Source: an uncultured Mycoplasmatota bacterium (lineage in GTDB: Bacteria; Bacillota_I; Bacilli_A; RF39; UBA660). Taken from it: DNA of 9,040 bases. Of the stretch, positions 2,660 to 7,582 are shown piece after piece (position 1 is the stretch's first letter; every line of letters starts with the position of its first letter). A program made the position numbers and the translations under genes. A model generated the notes under the pieces. That model had not been told where the DNA came from and did not search any database. It saw only the letters and a list, made by a program, of their open reading frames with translations. The stretch is from contig CANRVM010000044.1 of the NCBI GenBank assembly GCA_947643295.1, positions 1 to 9,040 of the forward strand, written 5' to 3'.

Positions 2660-3175
2660 ATGGCAGAAAATTTAGTACATTCTTTTTTAGATTTATTTAG
2701 TGGAATGATAGGAATGCCTTTTGGAAAAGAAATTATTATCTTTATCATTTCTATGATGCCAATTTTAGAACTTCGTGGAGGATTAATTGCAGCCTCTCTT
2801 TTGAATATGAATCCAATCGTAAGTTTTATTGTTTGTTTTATTGGAAATTTACTTCCAATTCCATTTATACTATGGTTTATTACACCTCTTTTTGATCGAT
2901 TAAAGAGAACAAAGCATTTGTCAAAATGGGTAACAAAAATAGAAAATAAAGCGATTTCCAAAAAAGAACAAATTGAGAAAAGAGAATTTTGGGGATTACT
3001 TCTTTTTGTTGGAATCCCTCTTCCAGGAACAGGAGCTTGGACTGGTTCGTTAATTGCTTCTATTATAGGAATGAATAAGAAAAAATCACTTTTCGCATCC
3101 TTCTTAGGAGTTACGATGGCAGGTATTATTATGCTTGTTTTATCGTTTGGATTACTAAAAGGGATTATTGGGTAA
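2660..3175 (+). CDS. COG2426-type small multidrug export family membrane protein
   Basis: This 171-residue integral membrane protein resembles the Sm_multidrug_ex/COG2426 family. Recognisable signatures are MPILELRGGLIAA (residues 33-45), GNLLPIPFILWF (62-73) and VGIPLPGTGAWTGSLIAS (117-134). Hydrophobic segments lie at about 23-47, 52-77, 110-135 and 146-170, with a charged cytoplasmic-type loop (about 80-108). The paired glycine/proline-rich signatures suggest re-entrant hairpins; that is inference from the pattern. The family name comes from an old export annotation and the transported substrate is not established. ATG 2660 is chosen because AGAAAGGA (2645-2652) sits at good spacing. An upstream in-frame ATG at 2621 would overlap tex and add 13 hydrophilic residues without a better ribosome site. 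The terminator hairpin begins inside its last codons. Confidence 0.85.
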   Translation: MAENLVHSFLDLFSGMIGMPFGKEIIIFIISMMPILELRGGLIAASLLNMNPIVSFIVCFIGNLLPIPFILWFITPLFDRLKRTKHLSKWVTKIENKAISKKEQIEKREFWGLLLFVGIPLPGTGAWTGSLIASIIGMNKKKSLFASFLGVTMAGIIMLVLSFGLLKGIIG

Positions 3176-3193
3176 AATCTAGTAATCTTTTTT
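3150..3193 (+). terminator. Intrinsic terminator of the tex operon
   Basis: A perfect 8-base stem GATTACTA (3150-3157) / TAGTAATC (3180-3187) is followed at once by six T (3188-3193). The 5' arm is coding sequence for the COG2426 protein. The 22-base loop is large and the stem AT-rich, so termination may be incomplete. Confidence 0.55.
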
Positions 3194-3199
3194 ACTTTC

Positions 3200-3208
3200 T
3201 GATATAAT
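3200..3208 (+). promoter_or_regulatory. Extended -10 promoter for the first small-protein/metallopeptidase unit
   Basis: TGATATAAT is an exact extended -10 element (TGnTATAAT) in the gap between the terminator and the next gene. No convincing -35 box lies 16-18 bases upstream, which extended -10 promoters can tolerate. A start about 7 bases downstream (near 3215) would leave a leader of roughly 10 bases, with the ribosome site AGGTGA (3215-3220) at its 5' edge. Confidence 0.55.
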
Positions 3209-3224
3209 ATAGGTAGGTGATACT

Positions 3225-3461
3225 ATGGGGCAAGAGTTAAAAAATAAGTATTATAAACTAATTGAAGTGGAAGATGGTGCAACGTTATCATTAGTAGATT
3301 CTATTTTTACAAAAATAGATACGTTATTATTAACTGAGAGAGGAAGAGACTCTAATACTGAATTATTAGATTTAATTTCGGTATTAGAATTTACAGAGGA
3401 AAAATTATTTGATGTAATAAAATCAGATATTGAAAGTGGTGTAATAAGATGGAACCAATAG
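3225..3461 (+). CDS. Small helical protein of unknown function, copy A (partner of metallopeptidase-like protein A)
   Basis: I do not recognise this 78-residue family. It is acidic, probably all-alpha, has no signal peptide or membrane segment, and contains no Cys and no visible helix-turn-helix or metal motif. Conspicuous segments are ELKNKYYKLIE (4-14), TLSLVDSIF (20-28), IDTLLL (31-36) and ISVLEFTEE (51-59). ATG 3225 follows AGGTGA (3215-3220). Its last 13 bases overlap the next gene, implying translational coupling and probably balanced production. A paralogue at 5857-6081 precedes a second, related large gene and matches at 46 of its 74 residues without gaps (hand alignment). The fixed pairing suggests a partner, inhibitor, adaptor or substrate of the large protein; this is inference only. 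Confidence 0.85.
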   Translation: MGQELKNKYYKLIEVEDGATLSLVDSIFTKIDTLLLTERGRDSNTELLDLISVLEFTEEKLFDVIKSDIESGVIRWNQ

Positions 3462-4936
3462 AAAAGTTGAAAAAGAAAATAGAAGATATTTTAGAGAGTA
3501 AGTCATTTGATGAGAATGCAAAAGAAAATATAAAAGAAACTTTATTGTTTATTTTCGAACATTATTATTCTCCATCTTACATAGGAATTTCTAAAGATGA
3601 TTATATTGATATGTATTTAGAGACACTTAAAAATATAAATGGTTATTCTATTTTTAATTTGAATAATATCAATGAGGATAGTGATATTGCTGAAATATTT
3701 AGAGAAGGAATCATAGAAGTAAAAGATAATAAGGGAATTTTAGACTATGTAAATGATAAATATGAGTTAGTAAACGAAGGTCCATATTATCCAGCATGTA
3801 AAGGATTTTCGTGGAAAAAGTCAGGTAGTATGTATACACTTGATGAGAATAATAAAAATGAGATGATTAAATCTTGTTATCATGAAATAACAGAGTTAAG
3901 TAGTGGGAAAAATCCATATCCATTATTTTCATCAGTTCCATTTAGTTTTTCACTTAAAAAGATGTTTATAGATGGAGATTTGAGTGTTAGAGATAGTTAT
4001 TTAGATTTAAAGACAAATTATCAAGTAGAGATATTGAAAGAAAAAAATATTGTATTAAAAATTTGTTCTGAGTATTCTTATCCTTTATATGGAATGCTTT
4101 ATCAAATGATGCAATTATTATTTGGGGGAGAATTATTAGAAGAATTTAGACGAAACGATATTGAAGAAATAAGTTTATTTGATGCATTAAAAGAAAAACA
4201 TCCAGATATGGAAATAGAAACTATTTTTGCTCATGTAATTTATATATTAAGTTGTTATAATGATGATAGTAAAGTAAAGTATAACAAAAAGAAAGCATTA
4301 GAAATGGCAATTAAGCATTATCAAAAAGTAGTAGTAGAAACTCATAAGAGTATTGCGAAAAGGTGTATTTCTTTAGGTGATGATATTACAAATACAAAAG
4401 AATGGCTTAGTGAAAATCAGAAAATAGAAGAAGAGATTTTAGATAAATTAAATAATAAAAAGAAGCTAGAAGAAGCATTTGAACATCAAATGAAATTAGT
4501 AAGAGAAGAAACTTTAAAGAAATACGAAGAAGGTATTATTACGAATAAAGAATATCTTGCAGCTTTAAATGAATTTGATAGAGAAGGTACCATTGAAAAT
4601 TTTAAATTAGCTCAAAAACAAGATTTGAAGTTAATGGGAAAAACAATCAAAGAAGGAGAAAAAAAACTAGTATCTTTACAAAATGAATTTGATGTATTGT
4701 ATATGAAAAAGAAAGAATTAGAAGAAAATAAATTTGGAAAAGCATTAGAAGAAATATGTATTACAAAACCATCTTTAATAGACTCTATAGAGTATTTAAA
4801 GAAAAAATGTTCAAAAGCAATACAAAAAGATCATACATTATCAGATGATGATGATGAACATAGTGTATATTTAGATAAAATGAAATTATTTGTTCATATT
4901 AAATCACAAATGGTTTTATCAAAAACAAGTAAATAG
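3449..4936 (+). CDS. Metallopeptidase-like protein A with degenerate zinc motif (HEITE) and coiled-coil tail
   Basis: This is a 495-residue protein of a family I cannot name. It aligns along its whole length with the protein at 6083-7582. The N-terminal half (about 1-275) contains the metallopeptidase-like core. At residues 145-149 it reads HEITE where the paralogue has HEMTH, and at Asp175 (MFIDGD) where the paralogue has Glu (MLVEGR). First His and general-base Glu are kept, but the second His ligand is Glu and the third ligand is Asp. Conserved structural segments include MYTLDE (128-133), YPLYG (211-215), LFGGELLEE (224-232) and IFAHVIYILSC (259-269). Residues about 285-425 are highly charged coiled coil, interrupted by EEGIITNKEYLAALNEF (360-376), then NKFGKALEEIC (427-437). 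No signal peptide or membrane segment is seen, so it should be cytoplasmic. It is probably a pseudoprotease or uses altered metal binding (inference). The ATG overlaps the small gene by 13 bases; GAAAGTGG (3432-3439) is the likely ribosome site. Confidence 0.85.
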   Translation: MEPIEKLKKKIEDILESKSFDENAKENIKETLLFIFEHYYSPSYIGISKDDYIDMYLETLKNINGYSIFNLNNINEDSDIAEIFREGIIEVKDNKGILDYVNDKYELVNEGPYYPACKGFSWKKSGSMYTLDENNKNEMIKSCYHEITELSSGKNPYPLFSSVPFSFSLKKMFIDGDLSVRDSYLDLKTNYQVEILKEKNIVLKICSEYSYPLYGMLYQMMQLLFGGELLEEFRRNDIEEISLFDALKEKHPDMEIETIFAHVIYILSCYNDDSKVKYNKKKALEMAIKHYQKVVVETHKSIAKRCISLGDDITNTKEWLSENQKIEEEILDKLNNKKKLEEAFEHQMKLVREETLKKYEEGIITNKEYLAALNEFDREGTIENFKLAQKQDLKLMGKTIKEGEKKLVSLQNEFDVLYMKKKELEENKFGKALEEICITKPSLIDSIEYLKKKCSKAIQKDHTLSDDDDEHSVYLDKMKLFVHIKSQMVLSKTSK

Positions 4937-4958
4937 ATAAGTAAAGTTGCTTGTTTTT
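4921..4958 (+). terminator. Intrinsic terminator after metallopeptidase-like gene A
   Basis: A 12-base-pair stem with one G-T pair is formed by AAAAACAAGTAA (4921-4932) and TTGCTTGTTTTT (4947-4958), with a 14-base loop and a T-run inside the 3' arm. The upper arm encodes the last residues of protein A. It separates A from the Ppx/GppA-like gene, whose ribosome site begins 7 bases later. I see no clear promoter in the remaining gap, so readthrough or a promoter inside gene A must supply the downstream genes. Confidence 0.7.
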
Positions 4959-4976
4959 GTTGTTAGGAGAAATTTT

Positions 4977-5846
4977 ATGAAAAAATTGATTATAGAAGTT
5001 GGTTCTACTTGTACAAAAGTAGATATATATGACGGAGAAAAAATTGAAAGATTAGAGAATATAACAATTCAATTAAAGAAACATTATGAAGAAAATAAAT
5101 GTTTAAGAGAAGAAGATGTAAATCTATTAGTACAAAGTATCAATAAATTAAAAGAAGTTACAGAAGATATTTATGTATGTGGAACAAGTATTTTTAGAAC
5201 AATATCAGAAGAAGAAAAAGAAAAATTTTTAAAAGAATTTTATACACGAACAGGATATGAATTTCATATTATTTCACAGGAAGAAGAAAATTTCTTTACT
5301 GTCTATGGAGTATCAAGATGTATAAATCAAAAAATTGGTGTTATGATAGGTGGAGGAGGTTCTACTGAAATTGCAATTGTGAATGATAAAATATTAGAAA
5401 CAGTAAATTCTAAAATTGGTGTCATCGATGTGATGAGAGAATTTCCTGATTTAGCTAGTGATATAGCCACTACCAATATAGAAGTAGTAAAAGATTTTAT
5501 TAGAAATAAAATTAACTTACCAAAAGGAAAAGCTGATATTTTAGTACTAGCAGGAGGAGGACATGAAAGATTTGCTCGTCAGTCTGGCATTACATATAAA
5601 GATAATACATTATATAAAGATATTGCAGCTTCGATTATGATGGATATAGAAACTAGAAAAAAAGACACAAAAAGATTTTATGAAGAAATATCACTTAATG
5701 AAATACGAGAGGTATTCGGTGATAAAGAATGGTGGTATGGAACTCGTGCAATGTGTGCATTTGTATTAGTTGTGGCAGAAGAGATGGGGGCAAAATACAT
5801 TGTTCCAACTGATATTACAATGACATATGGAATTTTGAATAAATGA
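4977..5846 (+). CDS. Ppx/GppA-like ASKHA-fold phosphatase (exopolyphosphatase-like)
   Basis: This 289-residue protein resembles the short Ppx/GppA phosphatases, which act on polyphosphate or pppGpp. The N-terminal phosphate loop is IIEVGSTCTK (5-14), where Ppx usually has a DIGSNS-like loop. CGTSIFRT (68-75) matches the ATSAxR strand, and IISQEEEN (98-105) matches the ISGxEEA motif with the catalytic Glu. The second phosphate loop is IGGGGSTEIAIV (124-135), where the usual DIGGGS has lost its Asp. VLAGGGHERFA (190-200) and WYGTRAMCA followed by PTDITMTYGIL (277-287) fit the C-terminal elements. ATG 4977 is preceded by AGGAGA (4965-4970); an upstream TTG at 4947 lies in the terminator stem and is rejected. 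The gene is 10 bases upstream of small protein B, implying cotranscription. Whether it hydrolyses polyphosphate or pppGpp, or only binds a ligand, cannot be told. Confidence 0.8.
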   Translation: MKKLIIEVGSTCTKVDIYDGEKIERLENITIQLKKHYEENKCLREEDVNLLVQSINKLKEVTEDIYVCGTSIFRTISEEEKEKFLKEFYTRTGYEFHIISQEEENFFTVYGVSRCINQKIGVMIGGGGSTEIAIVNDKILETVNSKIGVIDVMREFPDLASDIATTNIEVVKDFIRNKINLPKGKADILVLAGGGHERFARQSGITYKDNTLYKDIAASIMMDIETRKKDTKRFYEEISLNEIREVFGDKEWWYGTRAMCAFVLVVAEEMGAKYIVPTDITMTYGILNK

Positions 5847-5859
5847 GGGGATTAGATTG
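5846..5859 (+). promoter_or_regulatory. Ribosome binding site deciding a TTG start
   Basis: AGGGG (5846-5850) overlaps the TGA stop of the Ppx/GppA-like gene and lies 6 bases before TTG (5857-5859). The next residues (KQELKNKYY) align with the start of paralogue A, and no in-frame ATG competes. The start is therefore TTG. Confidence 0.75.
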
Positions 5860-6081
5860 AAACAAGAATTAAAAAATAAATATTATAATTTAATTGAAAA
5901 TAAAGATTATGATACATTATCTTTGATCAATTCTATTTTTAGTGAAATTGATACATTATTGCTTATGAATCGTGGAAAAAATCAAATAGAAAAATTTTTA
6001 GATATTATTTCTGTGCTTGAATTTACAGAAGAAGCATTATATCAAAAAATGAAAATAGATATAGAAAGTGGCGCTTTTTGA
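5857..6081 (+). CDS. Small helical protein of unknown function, copy B (partner of metallopeptidase-like protein B)
   Basis: A 74-residue paralogue of the protein at 3225-3461. A gapless hand alignment gives 46 identities of 74, including QELKNKYY (3-10), IDTLLL (31-36), ISVLEFTEE (51-59) and DIESG (68-72). The last four residues of copy A are absent because the TGA comes earlier. The protein is predicted helical, cytoplasmic and without Cys. Translation starts at TTG with AGGGG in front, a weaker start than the ATG of copy A. The stop lies one base before the most likely start of metallopeptidase gene B, so the two are coupled. The DNA itself is still visibly similar to copy A near the start (for example 3230-3265 against 5862-5897), confirming a duplication. 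Function is unknown; as in copy A, a dedicated partner of the adjacent large protein is the simplest reading. Confidence 0.85.
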   Translation: MKQELKNKYYNLIENKDYDTLSLINSIFSEIDTLLLMNRGKNQIEKFLDIISVLEFTEEALYQKMKIDIESGAF

Positions 6082-6085
6082 AGTG
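6064..6085 (+). promoter_or_regulatory. Coupling site and GTG start of metallopeptidase gene B
   Basis: GAAAGTGG (6064-6071) is the same sequence that precedes gene A's ATG (3432-3439). It lies 11 bases before GTG 6083, against 9 bases before ATG 3449. An in-frame GTG at 6068 falls inside this element and would add five residues with no counterpart in A. GTG 6083 is preferred, but 6068 is not excluded. Confidence 0.55.
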
Positions 6086-7582
6086 CAAGAAGATGAAAGA
6101 ACAGTATTACAGCACAAAATAGAAGAAATCTTATCTAGGAAAATATTCACAGAAGAAGCTAAAAATAAATTATTACAATCTATATTATTTGTTTATGATA
6201 ATTATAATCCACCAAAATATTACAGAAAAACAAGAGAAGAATATGTCAATGAATATCTTAGAGTATTAGAAAATATGAATGGATATGCAGTTATAAAATT
6301 AGAAGAATTAAATTTAGATTATTATGAGCCAATCACTATTTTTCGTAATGATATAGAAAAAGTAACTGATGGAAGGGGAAATTTAGAATATGAGAATGGA
6401 ACATATATCCCATCAAAAAACGGTTCATATGTTTGTCTTTGTAAGGGACTAGCATTCCATCATGATAATACTATGTATACTCTTGATGAAGGAAATATCT
6501 ATAAAGAGTTAATGACAATTCACCATGAAATGACTCATTTGGGTGAAGGTGAAAGACCGTTTTTATTAGGAAGTCAAGTACCACTTTCTTTTGAATTGCG
6601 TGAAATGCTAGTCGAGGGACGTGCAGTAACAAGAGAAGCCAATATTAACACTAGTAATGATTATTATCAGATAGAACGTATTTCTGATCAAAATTCTTCT
6701 TTTAAAATTGAATCAGAAAGAGCTTATCCATTATATGGAAAATTATATCAAACTTTAGAGTTGATATTTGGGGGAGATGTACTTGAAGAACTAGCTTTAA
6801 ATAATAATAGAGAATTTGATATGCTTGAAGAGCTAAGAAAAAGATTTCCAGAAATTTCAGTAGATGTAATTTTTGCTCACATCATTTATATTATTAGCTG
6901 TAAGGAAAATGTAGATAAAAAAAATATAGAAAATGCAATTGATCATATGAATTGGAAATTAAAAGCTTTAATAGAAAAATATAATAATGATTTAGAAAAC
7001 GCCAAGTATTTAGAAGGATCAATATTGCAACAACAACTTGAAATTGAACAAGGAACAGCTTTGTTGAATAATCAGACCTTATTACAAGAAGAATTTCAAA
7101 AGAAATGTGAAACAATAAAACAAGAAATAGAAGAGTGGTATAAACGTGGTGAGATATCTGAAGTAGAATATCAACAAGAAATGAAAGAATTTGAGATAGA
7201 GGCAACTTTAGAAAATTATCGTAGTATAAAAGAACAAGAATTAAATCAAAGTATAGAAAATAAAAAAAGAGAAGAGGAATCACTTCAGCAATTAAAAGAA
7301 ACTTTATCAGAGTTATATGAAGAAATACAAAGAGATTCAAAAAATAAATTTGGAATTATATTAGAAGTGATTTGTTTAAAAAATCCATCATTAGAAGCAT
7401 CCTTTTCCTTTTTAGAAAATACAGTACTTGAAAAAATTCAGGGTGAATATGCAAAATTATCAGATGAAGAGAAAGAAAGTGAAAAAGGAAGTGTTCTACT
7501 AGCACAAATACAAAAATTATTTGATTTAAAAGAACATACAATAATTGTAGATGAAAAACAAAAAACCAGTATAGCCTCTTAA
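6083..7582 (+). CDS. Putative gluzincin-like zinc metallopeptidase B with coiled-coil C-terminus
   Basis: From GTG 6083 the protein has 499 residues, full-length relative to paralogue A; GTG 6068 would give 504. Residues 148-152 are HEMTH (6524-6538), an intact HExxH zinc and catalytic motif. Glu178 (6614-6616, in MLVEGRA) lies 25 residues after the second His, the spacing expected of a third ligand in gluzincins. Conserved with A are MYTLDE, VPxSF, YPLYG, GGxxLEE and IFAHIIYIISC. The tail (about 290-425) is charged, heptad-like coiled coil with KRGEISEVEYQQEMKEF (354-370), loosely like a SHOCT motif, then NKFGIILEVIC (421-431). No secretion signal or membrane segment is seen, so it should act in the cytoplasm. 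No named peptidase family is recognised and the substrate is unknown. The gene follows small gene B by one base, and its end overlaps the ldh stop by four bases. Confidence 0.85.
   Translation: MQEDERTVLQHKIEEILSRKIFTEEAKNKLLQSILFVYDNYNPPKYYRKTREEYVNEYLRVLENMNGYAVIKLEELNLDYYEPITIFRNDIEKVTDGRGNLEYENGTYIPSKNGSYVCLCKGLAFHHDNTMYTLDEGNIYKELMTIHHEMTHLGEGERPFLLGSQVPLSFELREMLVEGRAVTREANINTSNDYYQIERISDQNSSFKIESERAYPLYGKLYQTLELIFGGDVLEELALNNNREFDMLEELRKRFPEISVDVIFAHIIYIISCKENVDKKNIENAIDHMNWKLKALIEKYNNDLENAKYLEGSILQQQLEIEQGTALLNNQTLLQEEFQKKCETIKQEIEEWYKRGEISEVEYQQEMKEFEIEATLENYRSIKEQELNQSIENKKREEESLQQLKETLSELYEEIQRDSKNKFGIILEVICLKNPSLEASFSFLENTVLEKIQGEYAKLSDEEKESEKGSVLLAQIQKLFDLKEHTIIVDEKQKTSIAS

Follow-up and report, generated by a model that had tools for sequence, protein, structure and literature searches.

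A small gene paired twice with a gene for a metallopeptidase-like protein in an uncultured Mycoplasmatota genome

A 9,040-nucleotide stretch of DNA from an uncultured Mycoplasmatota bacterium (contig CANRVM010000044.1; hereafter the window) carries, in two copies, a gene for a small protein of 74-78 amino acids followed by a gene for a large protein of about 500 amino acids, which raises the question of what the large protein is and whether the two proteins act together. The similarity between the copies is far beyond chance, with 63% identity over 73 amino acids for the small proteins (E 2e-30) and 33% identity over 496 aligned columns for the large proteins (E 1e-86), in agreement with the original prediction, which was made from the window sequence and proposed a duplicated pair of interacting proteins. 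The reading favoured here, at a probability of about 0.5, is that the large proteins form an undescribed family of intracellular gluzincin-type metallopeptidases and that the small protein is a dedicated accessory produced by coupled translation. The window corresponds to the minus strand of a contig (G000:C7:15802-24841) in a metagenome-assembled genome (MAG) of 1.39 Mb that is 71% complete. Both copies lie on the forward strand of the window. Copy 1 comprises small 1 (3225..3461; 78 amino acids), whose homologues were aligned, and large 1 (3449..4936; 495 amino acids), and copy 2 comprises small 2 (5857..6081; 74 amino acids, with a TTG start) and large 2 (6068..7582; 504 amino acids when read from the GTG at 6068).

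The large protein and its predicted fold

Neither protein could be assigned to a known family, as had been anticipated: profile searches with Pfam, NCBIfam, PADLOC and PHROGs gave no convincing match. The small proteins of the window have no Pfam or NCBIfam match above cut-off, the best PHROG match for either protein has an E-value of 0.0037, and PADLOC returned only weak helical matches at E 0.005 (a helical stretch of Cmr5) and E 0.026. A search of solved-structure sequences with the large-protein profile likewise gave helical matches only (best E 0.01), and no description of this small/large family was found in the literature.

The identity of the large protein is instead suggested by its motifs and predicted structure. 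Large 2 contains an HExxH motif (6524..6538) with the core HHEMTH, comprising His153, Glu154 and His157 in the 504-residue numbering, followed by an EGRA motif (6614..6625) that includes Glu183, a putative third metal ligand located 26 residues past the last histidine. Of 20 aligned members, 19 retain both HExxH and Glu183, and HExxH, Glu183 and Gly184 persist down to 17-19% identity, with copy 1 the sole departure; the same motif pattern was read by eye in five further relatives (L076-L080). The AlphaFold2 model of large 2 (pLDDT 91) shows an N-terminal alpha/beta domain carrying HExxH and the downstream EG glutamate, the latter on a predicted helix at residues 174-191, followed by a long helical hairpin (6917..7339; residues 284-424 in the secondary structure of the model). 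The combination of an HExxH core with a long helical tail, proposed for both large proteins in the original prediction, therefore applies to copy 2 and fails for copy 1, which has lost HExxH. No segment is as hydrophobic as a transmembrane control and no secretion signal was seen, suggesting that the large protein is soluble and bearing out the earlier placement in the cytoplasm. Catalytic residues are strictly kept while the hairpin arm drifts, and the first part of the hairpin is the fastest-diverging stretch in the identity profile.

Solved metallopeptidases fill the list of fold matches for the N-terminal domain, whereas full-length searches return generic long-helix matches and a viral fold library gave nothing significant. 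The likeness to known zincins and gluzincins, namely the collagenase peptidase domain, lugdulysin and lethal factor, of families M9, M30 and M34, respectively, and selecase, is at the level of the fold only and has no bearing on substrate or toxicity. The large family shares with gluzincins the HExxH motif and a glutamate on the following helix, traits that would be consistent with zinc binding and proteolysis, but it differs from them in having no sequence-family match and in adding a long helical hairpin and a paired small gene. A second point of comparison is a set of HExxH...EG proteins of about 290 amino acids from another Bacilli family (L064, L067), which match the profile at E 3.2e-5 and share the pattern YHELGHV...FTEGVAMYFE; these proteins lack the hairpin, and no small gene was recognised by eye in their loci of about 3.3 kb.

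Linkage and overlap of the small and large genes

A protein database yielded 13 relatives of the large protein at E <= 0.001 (14 by profile) and 21 relatives of the small protein at E <= 0.1, the window's own proteins included in each count. Within the genus, the large gene is present in five of six genomes; in the remaining one (G002) the site is empty, with 46 bp between the end of the export gene (3331 of L054) and the start of the lactate dehydrogenase gene (3378). An even draw from the order, searched with a broader profile, placed the large gene in 16 of 385 genomes; a seventeenth match (G218) was dropped because it covered the hairpin region only. Also dropped were G085 and G247 (hairpin only, in what reads as a membrane-insertase-like gene) and G083 (same frame length). 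A sample of 395 genomes drawn from the class added weak matches (E 2e-4 to 9e-4) in six that belong to families other than the window's; those in G623 and G563 are HExxH...EG proteins of about 290 amino acids, and the other four fall in the hairpin or other stretches. The class matches dropped were G717 and G629, both in the hairpin region, G608 (profile positions 246-300) and G408 (broken frame). A phage or plasmid origin was considered and rejected, as an IMG/VR scan yielded 92 matches to the pattern, none of them confirmed as a relative, with the collections of phage and plasmid records lying outside the search.

The relationship between the two genes was surveyed at 20 loci with a large gene. 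Two of these are the window's own, five (L027-L031) lie elsewhere in the genus and 13 come from other genera; a fragment (L083, G366:C40) was left out. The small gene lies directly upstream of the large gene at 13 of the 20, namely both copies in the window, L027, L028, L029, L030, L031, L034, L035, L038, L055, L076 and L077. The large gene occurs without it at the other seven (L032, L033, L036, L037, L078, L079 and L080), including L079, whose large gene is disrupted close to the 5' end. When the small profile was run on stop-to-stop frames of at least 35 amino acids in the small-less loci, nothing was found (best E 0.24), while all seven positive-control loci were recovered. Conversely, the small profile found 11 confident matches (E 4.6e-23 or better) in nine of 370 order genomes, and all 11 lie directly before a large gene. 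Because every confident small gene precedes a large gene but seven of the 20 large genes stand alone, the small protein looks like a dedicated accessory rather than an obligatory partner; dependence appears to run from the small gene to the large one and not in reverse, within the reach of a profile that was built from known members and that more remote small genes would escape. The link between the genes that the original prediction had drawn is thus retained, whereas the obligate partnership it implied is contradicted by the large genes found alone.

Weak small-profile matches (E 9e-4 to 0.05) were not counted as confident. For the 21 of these with loci (L095-L115), the large profile finds nothing, and 19 fall within frames of at least 192 amino acids. 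A free-standing frame of 85-86 codons in G020 (L102, 1438-1695; E 0.003) has no conserved small-family start and no large gene within 3.2 kb, and the match in L104 contains a stop. Both are probably unrelated to the small family, although L102 could be a remote lone small gene. On the tree, the presence of the small gene requires five changes, at least three of which are forced by supported branches, suggesting its repeated loss or gain. The hairpin is longer where the small gene is present (p 0.016 for 13 versus 6 loci, with L079 excluded), a difference too weak to use once one row is taken per diverged lineage (p 0.068, 9 versus 6). The correlation between small and large identities peaks at large residues 1-75 (Spearman 0.91 versus 0.77-0.85 elsewhere, over 21 non-independent pairs), and linkage accounts for this peak equally well.

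Overlap of the two genes was claimed for both copies, and this is clear for copy 1, in which the frames overlap by 13 nt. In copy 2, a 14-nt overlap exists only if the upstream GTG at 6068 is used; the GTG at 6083, one base past the TGA of small 2, gives a protein of 499 amino acids and is the likelier start, judging by its better fit to the N-termini of relatives. Of the 13 pairs, 12 have the first start of the large frame inside the small gene, by 1-23 nt, copy 2 (14 nt inside, or a 1-nt gap) being the exception. In five distant relatives (L034, L035, L038, L076 and L077) the large gene starts at an ATG embedded in the codons for DIxNG, the conserved C-terminal motif of the small protein, and part of the conservation of this motif may therefore be at the DNA level. 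A constraint at the protein level is also likely, since the motif persists in the genus, where the start of the large gene has shifted.

Two further genes were noted beside the units. A third gene of 166 amino acids overlaps the end of the large gene in L035 (3113-3613); it has no Pfam match above cut-off and, among the loci read, occurs only in G307. A gene of 133 amino acids lies between an rplQ-like gene and the small-less large gene in L036 (4731-5132), and is not matched by the small profile.

Divergence of the copies and exchange of the locus

The two copies are similar as pairs, as the claim of a joint duplication would have it, but their divergence is old and an unrelated gene intervenes. 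Large 2 shares 70% identity with its closest orthologues (L027, L028) and only 33% with large 1, which is itself 32-36% identical to the six other genus sequences compared. In the tree, large 2 groups with the other genus loci to the exclusion of large 1, whose own position falls in a region drawn as open. The identities and the tree placement rule out a recent tandem duplication, and the contrast between 33% and 70% indicates that the window pairs are ancient, deeply diverged paralogues.

Large 1 departs from the family at the metal-binding site, reading YHEITE where HExxH is expected and DGDL in place of EGRA, with the changes H157 to E, E183 to D and A186 to L. Among 58 columns that are invariant in 13 other genus-level sequences, it keeps 46 and loses 12, the three motif changes included. 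The codon for the second histidine is GAG in copy 1 and CAT in copy 2, which rules out a single-base error, and the gene is otherwise an open frame. Because the metal-binding pattern is lost while the gene stays open, large 1 is probably a pseudo-peptidase. Regulatory inactive homologues of metallopeptidases are a known theme (PMC11266112), in which an inactive homologue stands beside active enzymes much as proposed for copy 1; the pseudoenzymes described there belong to other peptidase families.

In its genus the unit occupies one chromosomal slot, and there it diverges much more quickly than the genes around it. Most pairs of loci share 32-56% identity in the large protein (exceptions being 70% for copy 2 versus L027 and L028, and 91% for L027 versus L028) and 56-80% in the small protein (89% for L027/L028 and 99% for L030/L031), compared with 85-94% for Tex, 82-96% for the export gene and 87-98% for L-lactate dehydrogenase (LDH). 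The ratio of nonsynonymous to synonymous substitution rates (dN/dS) spans 0.25-0.68 in the large gene, 0.14-0.52 in the small gene (the near-identical L030/L031 pair apart) and 0.04-0.10 in Tex, and as many dS values are near saturation these ratios read as fast and not as above 1.

In the L027/L028 comparison, dS is low across the small gene (0.24), the large gene (0.18) and LDH (0.11) yet reaches 0.88-1.18 in the export gene and Tex, which indicates that the unit was exchanged between species as a block together with LDH. The corresponding tract, at about 5800-9290, has 89-100% DNA identity versus 81-89% upstream. Genome G003 holds two contigs (L030, 5747-7467; L031, 134-1857) whose small proteins differ by one residue and whose large proteins are 56% identical, each pair being followed by LDH; the probable explanation is a pair of alleles from different strains, the breakpoint falling within the large gene. 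P0005 resembles a mosaic of two allele types, differing from P0004 at residues of about 60-140 and matching on both flanks, which may reflect recombination or an assembly chimera.

Proposed function and alternatives

Under the metallopeptidase reading, the small protein would be made just before the large one by coupled translation, would bind the nascent large protein, most likely through the conserved N-terminal portion of the latter, and would control its folding, activity or choice of target. The variable helical hairpin would make the contacts that select a target, which the catalytic domain would cut in the cytoplasm, and large 1, as a pseudo-peptidase, could modulate active large 2 or bind targets without cutting them. 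The window would then provide a natural pair of active and inactive paralogues, with unusually fast divergence at a fixed locus, from a metallopeptidase-like family that is uncatalogued and belongs to small-genome, uncultured gut Bacilli. The family has a clean genetic signature, in that all confident matches to the accessory gene lie directly before the enzyme gene, and with two short operons the dependence on the partner and the choice of target are directly testable.

Several observations weigh against this reading. The large proteins reach the cut-off of no Pfam family and, in a search with the window proteins only, of no NCBIfam family, each fold match to a metallopeptidase is weak (all Z < 8), Foldseek gave no match at E <= 0.001 for either model, and the pLDDT of the N-terminal domain falls to 76 when it is predicted alone. 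The seven lone large genes indicate that the small protein is not generally required, its distribution on the tree is no more clustered than in shuffled data (123 of 500 shuffles gave a value as low), and the 99% identical small proteins beside 56% identical large proteins in G003 argue against tight co-evolution with the variable hairpin. In addition, copy 1 may have an altered metal site, glutamate and aspartate being possible metal ligands, or may simply be decaying.

A housekeeping role unrelated to conflict, in which the large protein would be a lineage-specific protease for processing or quality control and its fast divergence would reflect weak constraint on the arm, is a tentative alternative. 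It would fit the strict retention of catalytic residues beside a drifting arm and a large-gene dN/dS that stays within the range given above. Translations of neighbouring genes point the same way, with rplQ and/or ecfA-like genes next to L036, L037, L055 and L078, in three genera, and uvrB next to L038 and L076. The patchy distribution in the order and the empty site within the genus argue against it.

The same accessory distribution, with its empty site and 16 of 385 order genomes, would suit a conflict or defence module, in which a hypervariable intracellular protease and its partner sense phage or rival factors through the arm and cleave a host or invader protein. The divergence of the large protein relative to Tex, the exchange of the block between species and the two divergent alleles in one MAG make this idea attractive, although it has no direct support and is unlikely overall: PADLOC gave no informative match, no relative was confirmed in viral contigs, dN/dS stays below 1, and the neighbours read mostly as housekeeping genes, the noticed exceptions being an Rhs-like fragment (L034) and a RhuM-like gene (L076). 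Its fuller form, a new conflict system in which an intracellular metalloprotease that recombines and diverges fast recognises invader or rival factors with its variable arm, is armed or restrained by the co-translated small protein and has its dead paralogue as a decoy or regulator, is more doubtful still.

An arrangement of the type II toxin-antitoxin kind, with the large protein as a toxic protease and the small upstream gene as its antitoxin, is improbable. The small gene does come first, encodes about 70-80 amino acids and overlaps the large start in 12 of 13 pairs (copy 2 being ambiguous), but a toxin of about 500 amino acids is unusual for such systems, the lone large genes imply that an antitoxin is not required, and the unit keeps to one chromosomal slot throughout the genus.

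Least probable by far is a type VII-secreted effector of reversed domain order. The comparison is with the phospholipase TslA, which has an N-terminal enzyme, a C-terminal helical stack and two small helical partners, TlaA1 and TlaA2, at least one of which binds the C-terminal domain (PMC10730906); the pair described here shares this polarity and has a small partner gene, whose product would on this reading be helical and serve in targeting. The likeness is outweighed, and type VII secretion as a general route largely ruled out, by the finding that EssC, on whose system TslA depends, exceeds the TIGR03928 cut-off in only two of 11 pair-carrying genomes (G000 and G307; all incomplete MAGs) and not in the other nine, by the absence of an LXG Pfam match at E <= 1, and by the presence of one partner rather than two, LDH being the next gene after the large one in the genus slot. 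In the window's own genome EssC passes the cut-off with 1021 bits (L116, G000:C25), a level that no match attains in the remaining five genomes of the genus, and contamination is possible.

Around the two units, the window reads in order as a multidrug-export-like gene, small 1, large 1, a Ppx/GppA-family gene (4977..5846, forward strand; Pfam PF02541, E 1.8e-16), small 2, large 2 and LDH. The Ppx/GppA-like gene separates the two pairs, belongs to neither and is not present at the slot of the unit in L027-L030; G002 and G003 have relatives of it at other positions (30-35% identity), so that three of six genus genomes carry one, counting that of the window. A generic promoter scan of the window was at shuffle level, with 30 promoters found against a shuffle mean of 33.6. 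A conserved upstream region with a TATAAT-like box (3172..3224, forward strand) precedes small 1, is common to the single-unit loci L027-L030 in alignment and was not seen before small 2, which starts 10 nt after the Ppx/GppA-like gene and is possibly co-transcribed with it. Because the upstream region of small 1 precedes the single unit in L027-L030, copy 1 and the Ppx/GppA-like gene appear to be the additional block in the window's genome. Near the edge of the window, an isochorismatase-family gene (3-473) shares 61-74% identity with five relatives, below the conservation of its neighbours.

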